Source: a virus
Length of the DNA: 64,000 nt
Virus record (IMG/VR): IMGVR_UViG_3300047548_000628
Coordinates: 1-64,000 of that record
Strand: one strand, 5' to 3'
In this document: positions 953 through 7,929 of the stretch, in pieces
How the letters are laid out: each line of letters starts with the position of its first letter
Position numbering within the stretch: the stretch's first letter is position 1
The notes under the pieces: model-generated
What the model saw: only the letters and a program-made list of their open reading frames with translations
Databases searched by the model: none
Told to the model about the DNA's origin: nothing
Program-made: the position numbers and the translations under genes

Positions 953-1360
953 TTATTTCTTTTCCCTGAGCTTTTTCAAATTCTCTAATAGAGAAGTTGA
1001 CTTAGATTTCTCCTTAGCTTTAGGTTTTGTTTGGTGCGCTCGGTGGGAGTCGAACCCACTACCTTGAGTTTTAGAGGCTCTTGCTTTCCGATCAGCTACG
1101 GGCGCATCCGGGTCTGATAATTCTACTAGACCCTTAAATTTGTCATACGTATCAATTATAATTGTTTTAACTGTGTTATCAACTTTAATGGGCAAGTCTA
1201 GATGAATTGTTAGGCGTGGGCCGTCTTCTTCATTGATCATACCATCCCCGTATACTGTGCCAACAAAAGGAATCTTATTCCATTTACCGAACACACGTGT
1301 ACCGAACTCAAAATAAGGTTGAGGACGGTTCTTCTCAAAATATTCAGCTAGACTTGCCAT
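953..1360 (-). CDS. hypothetical protein with a tRNA gene embedded in its 3' third
   Basis: A 135-aa protein starting MASLAEYFEKNRPQPYFEFG, one base after the AhpD stop codon. Residues 1-82 look like a compact beta-rich domain. Residues 83-112 are the translation of a tRNA gene lying in the same strand (1032-1105). The tail is Lys-rich and may be coiled coil (ending NLKKLREKK). The frame stays open through the tRNA, although the tRNA (74 nt with CCA) is not a multiple of three. Either the tRNA was inserted and the reading frame extended through it, or the true protein ends differently. No known family is recognised. Confidence 0.65.
   Translation of the reverse strand: MASLAEYFEKNRPQPYFEFGTRVFGKWNKIPFVGTVYGDGMINEEDGPRLTIHLDLPIKVDNTVKTIIIDTYDKFKGLVELSDPDAPVADRKARASKTQGSGFDSHRAHQTKPKAKEKSKSTSLLENLKKLREKK
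1032..1105 (-). tRNA. tRNA with CUA anticodon (putative amber suppressor)
   Basis: Read on the minus strand. Acceptor GCGCCCG pairs with CGAGCGC (6 of 7, one C-A). There is TA at 8-9, a 3-bp D stem GCT/AGC with GG in the loop, and anticodon loop CTCTAAA giving anticodon CTA. The variable loop is AGGTA and the T arm is GTGGG-TTCGACT-CCCAC. The discriminator is A and the CCA is encoded. The anticodon stem is weak: three central pairs with mismatches at both ends. The acceptor resembles bacterial tRNA-Arg(UCU). An alternative register would give UCU, but that puts C instead of the near-universal U at position 33 and pairs worse. The charged amino acid cannot be read from the sequence. Confidence 0.75.
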
Positions 1361-2748: not shown

Positions 2749-3080
2749 TTTCTTTCTCCTCTCATATAGTTTCTTAACCACTCAATGTTTAGAGTAAGTT
2801 TGTTCCCAATCCACCTTGCACCAGTTGTATGATCACGCACATCATCTCCTGTATCTTCATGCAACAGAATATCTAGTTTAGTTTTAGAAAGAAATTCTTC
2901 AACGTCTTCTGCAATATTGCTATTGTAATTAACTTGATACATTGCATAAGGATGAGGACCAATTGGTTCATCATGCATCGAGCCGAGTTGGCAACCCAAC
3001 TCTTGCAAAGGTTGTCTTAGTTTTAGTGCTTCAAACCTTTGCGCTTCATTCTGCCAGTAGATGTGTGCGTGATAATACAT
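2745..3080 (-). CDS. DOPA 4,5-dioxygenase-family protein
   Basis: A 111-aa protein, the usual size of the small DOPA-dioxygenase family (PF08883 type). Family features seen: an N-terminal AHIYW strand with His, IGPHPYAMYQVNY in the middle, and ILLHEDTGDDVRDHTTGARW near residue 80. Several conserved His and Asp residues could bind the metal. Members cleave catechol rings extradiol-wise in fungi and plants; bacterial and phage members have no assigned substrate. It ends with the ATGA overlap to the 21-aa peptide. Its start overlaps the AhpC stop at 3080. Confidence 0.85.
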   Translation of the reverse strand: MYYHAHIYWQNEAQRFEALKLRQPLQELGCQLGSMHDEPIGPHPYAMYQVNYNSNIAEDVEEFLSKTKLDILLHEDTGDDVRDHTTGARWIGNKLTLNIEWLRNYMRGERK

Positions 3081-3625
3081 TATAGTGTCTCACCACCGAT
3101 TGGACGTGAGCATGGGCATAGTTCACCGGTTTGCAATGCGTCAAGAATACGCAATGTTTCATCTGGGTTACGACCAACGTCCAAGTTGTTTACTGTAACG
3201 TGCTGGATAACGTTATCAGGGTCAACGATGAATGTAGCACGAAGTGCCGCACCTGCTGGACCATAGAAGATACCTAGTTGTTGTGCTAGACTGTTTTCGT
3301 CACGTGCAACATCAGCGAATGACCAAGAGTTTGTCTCTTTTAGATCCGCGTGTGCATTACGCCATGCTAGTTTACAGAATTCATTGTCAGTACTACCGAT
3401 CAATAGAACTGCGTCACGGTCACTAAAGTCACCATTGAGCTTGTCATAAGCAACAATCTCAGTAGGACATACGAAAGTGAAGTCCTTAGGATAGTAAACA
3501 ATAACTTTCCATTTTCCTTCGAAACTTTTGTCAGTAATAGTTTCGAATGCGCCCTCTGGAGTAAGTGCGCCGGGCTTAACGCCAGTAACTGCAAAACTTG
3601 TAATTTTATCGCCGATTGTTTTCAT
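3080..3625 (-). CDS. ahpC: AhpC-type 2-Cys peroxiredoxin
   Basis: A 181-aa peroxiredoxin that reduces hydroperoxides. The peroxidatic Cys53 is in PKDFTFVCPTEI, the canonical P-x3-T-x2-C site. A second pair, CPC (170-172), near the C-terminus supplies likely resolving cysteines. ATG 3625 has a good AAAGGAAA ribosome-binding site. It lies upstream of the AhpD gene on the same strand, so peroxidase and reductant-like partner are probably co-expressed from the promoter at 4096-4125. The C-terminus is shorter than that of enterobacterial AhpC. Confidence 0.94.
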   Translation of the reverse strand: MKTIGDKITSFAVTGVKPGALTPEGAFETITDKSFEGKWKVIVYYPKDFTFVCPTEIVAYDKLNGDFSDRDAVLLIGSTDNEFCKLAWRNAHADLKETNSWSFADVARDENSLAQQLGIFYGPAGAALRATFIVDPDNVIQHVTVNNLDVGRNPDETLRILDALQTGELCPCSRPIGGETL

Positions 3626-6446: not shown

Positions 6447-7073
6447 ATGAACTACACCAAACACTATAATTTGTTAATAGAAAGAGCAAAAGAAAGATTG
6501 TTAGAGGGATACAAAGAAGCCCATCATATTATTCCTAAATCTATGGGCGGGACTGGTGACCCGGATAATCTTGTTAATTTAACAGCCAGAGAACATTATG
6601 TAGCACACATTCTTTTGGCAAAAATCTACGGAGGAACCCAATGGCATGCTGTAAATCTAATGGGTAGAAAAAAGAACTATACCAACAGATATTACGAAAG
6701 AGCAAGGTTAGAACATTCAAAATTACTTTCTGTTCAAAATAAAAGAACAAAAACTAAACCAAAAGAAAGTAGGCAATATTTATGTTTAGAGTGTTCAAAG
6801 ATTTTTAGTAAGTTAGAATTTTGTCATCATCCGTTACGAGAAAAGCCTTTTTGCAGTCAATCTTGTGCCGCAAGAAATACTGCTAGAAATAATATTGGCA
6901 AGAGACTTGTAATTAAAAATCCAAGAGTAAGTAGTTGGAATAAAGGGCTTTCAAATCCTCAGGCTGCCGAAAATGCTAGAAAAGGTGCCGCTAAATTATC
7001 TACTAAGGTTAAGGGCAGAACGAGATTATATAGAGAGGACGGGTCTTGGACTTGGCAATATCCAGAAAAATAG
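6447..7073 (+). CDS. HNH homing endonuclease inserted in the tmRNA locus
   Basis: A 208-aa protein. Residues 21-60 hold an HNH core (YKEAHHIIPKSMGG ... DNLVNLTAREHYVAH) with the His-His pair and downstream Asn/His. Residues 108-145 form a Cys-rich zinc-ribbon (CLECSKIF ... CSQSC). The C-terminus is basic, with a WNKGLSNPQAAENARKGA segment typical of modular DNA-binding ends of phage homing endonucleases. These enzymes cut a specific site and spread their gene by repair. It sits inside the tmRNA locus, opposite in strand, and its TAG stop lies within the new tmRNA terminator hairpin. Confidence 0.93.
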   Translation: MNYTKHYNLLIERAKERLLEGYKEAHHIIPKSMGGTGDPDNLVNLTAREHYVAHILLAKIYGGTQWHAVNLMGRKKNYTNRYYERARLEHSKLLSVQNKRTKTKPKESRQYLCLECSKIFSKLEFCHHPLREKPFCSQSCAARNTARNNIGKRLVIKNPRVSSWNKGLSNPQAAENARKGAAKLSTKVKGRTRLYREDGSWTWQYPEK

Positions 7074-7089
7074 GGACTGAGTCCCTATT
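7069..7089 (-). terminator. tmRNA terminator
   Basis: A 9-bp stem AATAGGGAC/GTCCCTATT with a 3-base loop. On the minus strand it is followed by a U-rich TTTTCTGG run, so it ends the tmRNA transcript. It overlaps the stop codon of the HNH gene on the plus strand. Confidence 0.8.
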
Positions 7090-7404
7090 ACTATTTTGGG
7101 TTATAAGGGATAGTTCCCCCAGAGATTATGCCGCTAGGGCAAATACCTCATCATTGGCTGCGTTTGCAGTTATAGATTTTCTTCTTTTTACATCGTTGCT
7201 GATGTGCTGTCCACTCTGTTACTCTTTGCCCTGTCGAAAACCAAAGTCATCCCCATCATAAACACACTAACTAGATGGGCGCTTAGAGTTCGTCTTGCGA
7301 GGAAACATCTAACCGTTTTGTCCCAACTAGTGTGCTTATGGTGGAGATGCCGGGAGTCGAACCCGGGTCCAGAACACTTTTCTCTTTGCTTCATACAGCA
7401 ATAA
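7090..7404 (-). ncRNA. ssrA: circularly permuted two-piece tmRNA (ssrA)
   Basis: Order on the minus strand: promoter, acceptor piece with T arm CCGGG-TTCGACT-CCCGG and 3' end CATCTCC-A-CCA (CCA at 7339-7341), an intervening segment 7255-7338, then the coding piece starting GGGGATG at 7254. GGGGATG pairs with CATCTCC (7 bp, one G-U). The pairing continues into the intervening segment (7328-7339 with 7258-7269), which would hold both ends together in the precursor. The coding piece encodes ANAANDEVFALAA. tmRNA rescues stalled ribosomes and tags proteins for proteolysis; permuted two-piece forms are known from alphaproteobacteria, some betaproteobacteria and cyanobacteria. Exact ends of the mature pieces are not visible. 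Confidence 0.9.
7126..7167 (-). other. ssrA: tmRNA tag reading frame ANAANDEVFALAA
   Basis: GCA (7165-7167) is the probable resume codon and TAA at 7126-7128 the stop. The 13-residue tag ends in ALAA, the C-terminal degron recognised by ClpXP/SspB systems, and contains the AAND element common in bacterial tags. Confidence 0.9.
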
Positions 7405-7406
7405 CT
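7367..7406. repeat. 40-bp direct repeat, copy 1 (inside tmRNA acceptor piece)
   Basis: These 40 bases recur identically at 7890-7929 in the same orientation. This copy is the functional one: it runs from about the tmRNA transcription start to just before the T stem. The acetyltransferase gene at 7435-7848 lies between the two copies. Confidence 0.95.
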
Positions 7407-7409
7407 CAC

Positions 7410-7438
7410 ATTGTATATTTATTTTTGAGTGTTGTCAA
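7410..7438 (-). promoter_or_regulatory. consensus sigma70 promoter of the tmRNA
   Basis: Minus strand TTGACA (7433-7438), a 17-base spacer, TACAAT (7410-7415). The predicted start is close to 7404, just where the 40-bp repeat begins. The -35 box overlaps the last codons of the acetyltransferase gene, so this promoter came with, or was built on, the inserted gene. Confidence 0.85.
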
Positions 7439-7848
7439 CTCTTAAAGGGATCATACCCACGAGGCATGATATGCTTTGATTGTTTGGCTTGATGCCAAGA
7501 ACGCCACATTCTATTGCCAGCATCCGATTGTATTTCGTGCGGAACGATGTCGTTGCCCAACATCTTGGCATAGGCATACATTGTGGTAGCAACACCTTGC
7601 TCTTGGTATCGGCCGTCCACCCAGGTGTCGTTGCTGACCAACCGAGGTGGTTTTTCGTCAGCAATTATCTCAAAGTCACATTTTCCAATTTGCTTTTTAC
7701 CATCAAACGCTTGGACAACTAGCTCCAGACCATAGTTGGTGCTGGTTGTTGCAGTATAGGTGTAATCCCCAATCTTTTGTTCGTGACGGAAATGTGGATT
7801 GAGGATATCTGGATTTATTTCTTCTGTGATAATTTCCGAAATACGCAT
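7435..7848 (-). CDS. GNAT-like protein with capsid-targeting-like N-terminus
   Basis: A 137-aa protein. Residues 1-10 (MRISEIITEE) resemble the T4 capsid-targeting sequence (MKTYQEFIAEA) and contain I-T-E, a candidate prohead-protease site. The rest looks like a shortened N-acetyltransferase fold, with acetyl-CoA-binding-like loop YQEQGVATTMYAYAKMLG near residues 82-99 and the final AGNRMWRSW segment common in phage GNATs. A CATAAATA box stands 4 bases before the ATG. Lying between two 40-bp tmRNA repeats, it appears to be an insertion. The acetylated target is unknown, and the GNAT call is moderate. Confidence 0.75.
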   Translation of the reverse strand: MRISEIITEEINPDILNPHFRHEQKIGDYTYTATTSTNYGLELVVQAFDGKKQIGKCDFEIIADEKPPRLVSNDTWVDGRYQEQGVATTMYAYAKMLGNDIVPHEIQSDAGNRMWRSWHQAKQSKHIMPRGYDPFKS

Positions 7849-7889: not shown

Positions 7890-7929
7890 GTCCAGAACAC
7901 TTTTCTCTTTGCTTCATACAGCAATAACT
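7890..7929. repeat. 40-bp direct repeat, copy 2 (tmRNA acceptor-piece fragment)
   Basis: Identical to 7367-7406. It is the 5' part of a tmRNA acceptor piece cut off before the T arm. Upstream on the minus strand a weaker promoter can be read (TTGTTT, 17 bases, TAAAAT), as if this were the original tmRNA start stranded by the acetyltransferase insertion. Confidence 0.9.

Follow-up and report, generated by a model that had tools for sequence, protein, structure and literature searches.

Two-piece transfer-messenger RNAs (tmRNAs), encoded by permuted genes, have been described in both bacteria and phages. The betaproteobacterial form was reportedly presented as a 'third lineage' by Sharkady and Williams in 2004. 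Among phages, the Methylophilales phage Melnitz has a two-piece tmRNA, and the available sections of the report concerned give 133 unique phage tmRNA structures, of which 53 are two-piece, 50 of these marine or aquatic; of 47 Melnitz-like contigs, 17 have the two-piece form (PMC9004378). A second report built the Rfam family RF04321 and lists 79 phage tmRNA sequences, in its available sections without a split into one-piece and two-piece forms (PMC11915505). The gene considered here is a permuted tmRNA gene (ssrA) on the minus strand of a 64,000-nucleotide (nt) stretch of viral DNA, positions 1 to 64,000 of IMG/VR record IMGVR_UViG_3300047548_000628, which is referred to as the window. An initial annotation, made from the letters of the window, had named the locus a phage-encoded, permuted two-piece tmRNA and had doubted that a well-described permuted example existed in this type of phage; the claim was confirmed by ARAGORN and two Rfam models, and the doubt is answered by the two-piece phage tmRNAs already in print.

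ARAGORN, two Rfam models and the compensated pairing seen in hundreds of viral homologues all support the naming of the window gene as a permuted two-piece tmRNA encoded by a phage. ARAGORN reported a single tmRNA in the window, permuted, at 7035-7431 on the minus strand, with the tag ANAANDEVFALAA. The Rfam model tmRNA_permuted (RF04321) matched over its full length at 7400-7126 (119.8 bits, cut-off 47, E 8.2e-23), and beta_tmRNA (RF01850) matched over its full model (positions 1-331) at 7452-7067 (99.0 bits, cut-off 84, E 7.4e-29), so that by the gathering cut-offs the gene is a member of both families. Its parts, in the order of transcription, are as follows.

7410-7438, minus strand: sigma70-like promoter, TTGACA-17-TACAAT (11/12 matches; the RF01850 5′ leader aligns over the region)
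7339-7406, minus strand: acceptor piece, first in the gene (exact 5′ end placed from the −10 element and the conserved motif)
7350-7366, minus strand: T arm, CCGGG-TTCGACT-CCCGG (sequence and covariance model)
7339-7349, minus strand: 3′ acceptor strand CATCTCC, discriminator A and encoded CCA (sequence)
7255-7338, minus strand: intervening segment, 84 nt, predicted to be removed (sequence, folding and family comparison)
7322-7338, minus strand: 5′ arm of a 17-bp helix (pairing analysis)
7259-7275, minus strand: 3′ arm of the 17-bp helix (pairing analysis)
7255-7258, minus strand: UGAU directly 5′ of the coding piece, predicted RNase P site (TGAT in 205/247 phage segments)
7092-7254, minus strand: coding piece, GGGGATG... 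(ARAGORN and Rfam; 3′ boundary approximate)
7126-7167, minus strand: tag frame ANAANDEVFALAA followed by TAA (ARAGORN)
7069-7089, minus strand: terminator-like 3′ hairpin, GGGACT-CAG-AGTCCC, with U tract (inside, at the end of, the RF01850 match)

The anatomy of the gene, the conserved pairing within it and its viral relatives could be observed directly. On the minus strand the acceptor piece, with its TTCGACT T arm and CATCTCC-A-CCA, precedes the coding piece, just as initially annotated, and the tag frame that had been claimed was recovered by ARAGORN with its TAA stop codon at 7167-7126. Both pieces contribute to the acceptor stem, in which CATCTCC (7349-7343) pairs with GGGGATG (7254-7248) in 7/7 positions, including G3-U70, the identity pair of alanyl-tRNA synthetase (AlaRS). 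The tag frame is open, with resume and stop codons present, and its product ends in ALAA; tags ending in LAA are recognised by ClpXP. In our view the locus is very likely a complete and working ssrA gene; it belongs to the permuted betaproteobacterial type, and the virus that carries it is probably a jumbo phage related to T4. The gene is real and probably functional, and it is of an already known kind.

With the betaproteobacterial two-piece tmRNA (RF01850) the window gene shares its gene order, T arm, G3-U70 pair, resume region and 3′ terminator, and with several contigs of the beta type an intervening helix that ends in UGAU before GGGG. It differs from the Thauera gene (L196) in having an 84-nt segment and the 13-residue tag instead of 36 nt and the 10-residue tag ANDERFALAA. 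Like that of Melnitz (MZ577097) it is a phage-encoded permuted tmRNA, in what is probably also a T4-related myophage; Melnitz, however, has an alpha-type tmRNA (106.7 bits with RF01849) and a glutamine riboswitch match just after the gene, whereas the tmRNA of the window is beta-type, with no match to the glutamine riboswitch (RF01739) found in the window. RF04321 scored over its cut-off in all five of Stenotrophomonas phage Marzo (Menderavirus), DLP_6, Xanthomonas phage Rb1, Alcaligenes phage QDWS595 and Acinetobacter phage BUCT628, as well as in Ruegeria phage RpAliso and Melnitz, and RF01850 in four of the five, Rb1 being the exception. Unlike the window virus, those five belong to other phage groups and carry other tags; the best identity to a named phage was 63% (six kept in the alignment, Marzo dropped).

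The putative promoter and terminator claimed in the initial annotation stood in part. The promoter-like site matches in 11 of 12 positions, and this by itself is not rare, the AT-rich window holding three matches as good and its shuffles two to eight each (8 shuffles); its support comes from position, because 3 nt separate the −10 element from the conserved 5′ motif that follows it, AGTTATTGCTGTATGAAGCAAAGAG (also given as AGTTATTGC). Among the 38 phage tmRNAs with this motif, the window gene included, a −10 element of at least 5/6 was present in 15 and a −35 element of at least 5/6 in 7, the two being sought separately, and a sigma70-like promoter of its own is therefore not general for this kind of gene. 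As to the terminator, hairpin and U tract are in place within the RF01850 match; the terminator scan scored the 7089-7069 hairpin on the plus strand only, and the minus-strand U tract overlaps the stem.

A helix that would bring the ends of the two pieces together had been described as 12 bp long. The helix is present and is longer, with 17 contiguous standard pairs that begin directly after CCA and stop 4 nt (UGAU) short of GGGG. In minimum-energy folds, computed without pseudoknots, the region was predicted to form one long hairpin in which A73, C75 and A76 are also paired with UGAU. The pairing recurs across the family. In 247 distinct phage segments (those of at least 40 nt, from 311), helix positions 3-9 were paired in 93-96%, compared with 46-69% expected from the make-up of the columns, and three to six standard pair types were found at each of these positions, a type being counted if present in at least 3% of sequences. 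The excess of pairing was 0.24-0.49 in register and at most 0.15 when the partner was shifted by 1-3 positions in either direction, and the segments ended in TGAT in 205 of the 247. A helix score of at least 8 was reached by 73% of 252 phage segments and 2.8% of shuffles, and by 12 of 29 distinct segments from bacterial contigs (41%, versus 2.4% of shuffles), a set that includes probably false tmRNA calls (e.g. L142 and L216); the segments are related by descent, and these counts are not counts of independent events. The comparison points to the intervening helix as a family-wide feature. A comparison of spacer length between phages and hosts was dropped, as the scans had been sampled by spacer length.

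Viral permuted tmRNAs are common, with hundreds in IMG/VR. A pattern of T arm, acceptor strand, CCA, spacer and GGGGNTG was scanned for in viral records with five spacer ranges and in bacterial genomes with spacers of 15-44 nt. At least 120 viral stretches matched for each of the spacer ranges 75-105, 45-74 and 15-44 nt, 103 for 106-135 nt and 68 for 136-165 nt, some of the last being second matches in loci already counted; the genome scan matched at least 120. With each locus counted once, ARAGORN called permuted tmRNAs at 449 of 509 viral loci (108/120, 110/120 and 99/120 for the first three ranges, 90/102 and 42/47 for the two longest). Closely similar tags occur in viral loci L021, L305 and L325, and an identical one in L594. 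ARAGORN tags ending in GT or KQA(T) rather than LAA were noted at nine loci (L150, L169, L190, L192, L198, L201, L207, L220 and L243), on contigs of Duganella, Herbaspirillum, Roseateles, Variovorax and others; such ends could be real or could reflect a misread frame.

Other jumbo phages also have tmRNA genes, at other loci. A relative of a 137-residue GNAT-like protein encoded next to the window gene is found at 34 viral loci; among the 34 records RF04321 matched at E≤0.001 in nine and over its cut-off in eight, one of the eight being probably the same virus; all eight exceed 90 kb, a length passed by 12 of the 34 records, and the 22 shorter ones have none. A T-arm loop of the GGCAGT type in place of TTCGA was seen in the permuted tmRNAs of L530, L533 and L692. 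L533 and L692 match the alpha model and L530 barely reaches the beta cut-off, and thus both alpha and beta types are represented among phages that share the window's neighbouring gene. In the genus of Stenotrophomonas chelatiphaga, a standard one-piece tmRNA scored over cut-off in 41/41 genomes and a permuted one besides it in four (G035, G052, G040 and G041; loci L686-L689), of which two have a plausible permuted tag by ARAGORN, another an odd tag and the last no gene call. Viral permuted tmRNAs are widespread and are found even where the host bacteria have a one-piece tmRNA themselves, as with the phages of Stenotrophomonas.

The record from which the window is taken is 147,572 bases long. 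A jumbo-sized genome is probable, since a stretch of 6,411 bases surrounding the tmRNA is identical in an IMG/VR record of 260,148 bases. Matches to a late sigma factor, to SbcCD and to virion structural proteins in the record suggest that the phage is related to T4. The comparisons of the late sigma factor, at most 43.6% identical with Pseudomonas PA5oct-like phages first (best 15 of 326 phage records), and of the tmRNA, where no match in a named phage extended over more than 20% of the query (best 60 of 113), brought up no close relative among named phages or bacteria. Together with one tRNA call in the window, 41 calls at 136.9-147.4 kb of the record, one of them without clear type, bring the number to 42. 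With about 42 tRNAs and a permuted tmRNA of the beta type, whose 13-residue tag is unusual, the phage fits the idea that jumbo phages maintain a translation supply of their own. One tRNA at 1032-1105 (minus strand) has the anticodon CTA and is a candidate for reading amber codons, with stem mismatches shown by Rfam; TAG ends one of the 39 mechanical open reading frames (ORFs) of at least 150 residues in the window.

To examine the descent of the gene, a midpoint-rooted tree was built with 333 permuted sequences out of 499 ARAGORN calls, from which duplicates, over-long tags, contig-end cases and unmatched boundaries were left out. The window gene fell into an all-viral group of 88 (support 0.90) that held 0 of 24 host sequences, and none appeared up to 92 sequences; the 24 were drawn, among the matches listed, from the short-spacer scan (15-44 nt) only. 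Its closest viral sequence was 78% identical and the closest of these 24 host sequences 64% (L187, which may be prophage-borne), the next, on a Herbaspirillum contig, also being at 64%. The narrow source of the host sequences weighs against the interpretation of the gene as a complete and working phage tmRNA, as do the uneven support at other nodes on the path up to 92 sequences (0.11-0.81), the 69 nt of the intervening segment that remain unaligned in the RF01850 match, and the search for SmpB (PF01668), which was not found in the 147.6-kb record or in eight large records of related phages (one probably from the same virus, and all possibly incomplete). Since SmpB was not found, the phage tmRNA would depend on that of the host.

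From these features we infer expression, processing, charging, use of SmpB and a benefit to the phage. A single transcript would start at or near AGUUAUUGC and end at the 7089-7069 hairpin, and the 17-bp helix, stacked on the acceptor stem, would hold the CCA end against UGAU. RNase P has a role in tmRNA maturation, and in this scheme host tRNA-processing enzymes would excise the segment, with RNase P cutting between UGAU and GGGG, 3′ exonucleases trimming, and perhaps RNase III acting on the long duplex. The two pieces would remain paired, be charged with alanine through G3-U70 and work with host SmpB and EF-Tu. Ribosomes stalled on mRNAs cut during infection would be rescued and ANAANDEVFALAA added, its LAA end being the usual one for ClpXP; together with the 42 tRNA calls, this may sustain translation while host RNA is destroyed. 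Ribosome rescue and the steering of tagged proteins to ClpXP, both suggested in the initial annotation, are thus reasonable expectations.

A different role, which we regard as improbable, would be inhibition in place of rescue, with an altered or dead-end tmRNA blocking trans-translation in the host. Such an effect has been reported, in the portion of the source available, for the coding sequence (CDS)-less tmRNA form of phage DS6A (PMC11915505), and the SmpB result would suit it, in that an RNA from a phage in whose record no SmpB was found would compete for the host's. Against it stand the open tag frame, with ALAA and a stop codon at its end, the undamaged acceptor stem, T arm and CCA, and the open tags reported for viral relatives, though ARAGORN reports only taggable genes. 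It is very improbable that the locus is a functionless fragment of a host ssrA gene, captured at an attachment site or by imprecise excision. Host ssrA is an integration site for islands, according to the accessible part of one report (PMC11915505), and a 40-nt partial copy of the tmRNA motif lies 523 bp from the original; such a fragment is at odds, however, with a complete gene that has promoter-like and terminator-like sites, with the closer viral than host identities given above, with the tmRNA genes at other loci of other jumbo phages, and with conservation in many phages with compensatory changes. Chance likeness of two unrelated tRNA-like and hairpin fragments, for which just the general risk of reading motifs by eye speaks, is scarcely credible and is refuted by the covariance search that the initial annotation had proposed, with E 8.2e-23 and 7.4e-29 over the whole gene, and by the independent ARAGORN call.

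Returning to the phage tmRNA gene as a working one, the intervening segment itself may in some related viruses have a second use. It is likely, in our judgement, that a phage permuted tmRNA gene can have two products, the discarded spacer doubling as a tiny mRNA for a peptide with a single membrane span and, in a jumbo relative, containing a full DUF2061 gene, with translation of this cargo and processing of the tmRNA competing on one transcript. Among 339 distinct phage intervening segments, 242 are at least 60 nt long, and in 45 of these the longest ORF starts with ATG and has at least 18 codons (mean 20.5 and maximum 35 in 100 dinucleotide shuffles). A hydrophobic stretch, defined as 15 residues with a mean hydropathy of at least 2, is encoded in 31 of the 45 (100 shuffles: mean 0.5, maximum 3). 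Under a stricter test, with the ATG near CCA and the ORF nearly full length, 31 of 218 segments qualified (shuffles: mean 6.9, maximum 13), and 28 of the 31 were hydrophobic (200 shuffles: mean 0.67, maximum 3). A hydropathy cut of 1.9 gave 33 loci (among them L014, L018, L019, L037, L049, L100, L119, L550, L576, L646 and L661), in 24 of which the ORF stops exactly at the TGA of UGAU before GGGG and in 21 of which a Shine-Dalgarno-like core lies between CCA and ATG. Looser tests, admitting any start, gave weak results and included chance ORFs (26/160 against 10.8 expected for at least 20 residues; 33/218 against 18.4 expected for at least 18 residues ending at the TGA before GGGG), and only the hydrophobic ATG class stands out.

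Over 31 ORF pairs, which are not independent, differences by codon position numbered 182, 126 and 304; of the changed codons 159 were synonymous and 258 not (38% synonymous), and the two other frames of the same pairs gave 9.6% and 5.2%. The L019-L048 pair, with 8, 9 and 9 differences, shows no third-position excess, and the L037-L056 pair has two differences only, both at first positions. The segment of L533 (1643-1852, minus strand) holds a 69-residue ORF that matches all 52 DUF2061 positions (E 3.5e-20) and stops at the TGA; its source, G018, is a 320-kb record that also encodes a 47%-identical relative of the window's 137-residue protein. ORF-bearing segments were found in several unrelated-looking sets of viral contigs, and a search of 50,697 phage records with two spacer peptides (tblastn, E≤1) gave no match. 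The window's own segment is without a hydrophobic ATG ORF, and the 13 codons of its lone ATG ORF with a stop are probably due to chance, the segment probably being a non-coding form of the slot. An unannotated ATG ORF of 54 codons with a Shine-Dalgarno-like site is present in the Melnitz segment (locus L692, MZ577097 45984-46436); it passes UGAU without stopping, runs into the coding piece and was not counted as a spacer ORF.

No title concerned with a protein gene in a tmRNA intervening segment came up in the literature searched, of which few papers were covered beyond the title and which largely excluded subscription papers, and the special contents named in the available sections of one survey are a tRNA gene and a repetitive element only, with no ORF mentioned there (PMC11915505). 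The membrane-protein genes in the spacers of related viruses look new, and if true, the spacer as an occasional protein gene would change the annotation of permuted tmRNA loci.

The tmRNA gene is flanked in the window by the following features.

7890-7929, minus strand: exact copy (40/40) of the 40-nt tmRNA 5′ motif (7367-7406), without T arm or CCA
7435-7848, minus strand: GNAT-like protein of 137 residues, with the 40-nt copy on one side and the tmRNA on the other (sub-threshold Pfam match to Acetyltransf_1, E 0.023)
6447-7073, plus strand: HNH homing-endonuclease-like gene, its 3′ end abutting the tmRNA terminator (phrog_655, E 2e-43; Pfam HNH)

Among 39 places with the motif, the 40-nt copy is the sole one without T arm and CCA; it continues with GC, as in other phage alleles, and is probably the remnant of another tmRNA allele after rearrangement. 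Its perfect identity is no proof of a recent copy, because the 5′ motif is so conserved in the 38 phage tmRNAs. Because of this repeat it was considered whether the GNAT gene had entered the tmRNA by a recent mobile insertion, and its placement in G002-G004 spoke otherwise: there it lies more than 100 kb from the tmRNA and adjoins a homologue of the same 777-residue gene (28-29% identity). A homologue of the window gene at 3080-3625 is found near the tmRNA in L528 and L532, and with the GNAT gene far from the tmRNA in one set of phages and this homologue near it in another, the window arrangement is therefore a mosaic. In L532 a partial match of the HNH gene (50% over 40 residues) is also located just upstream of the tmRNA.
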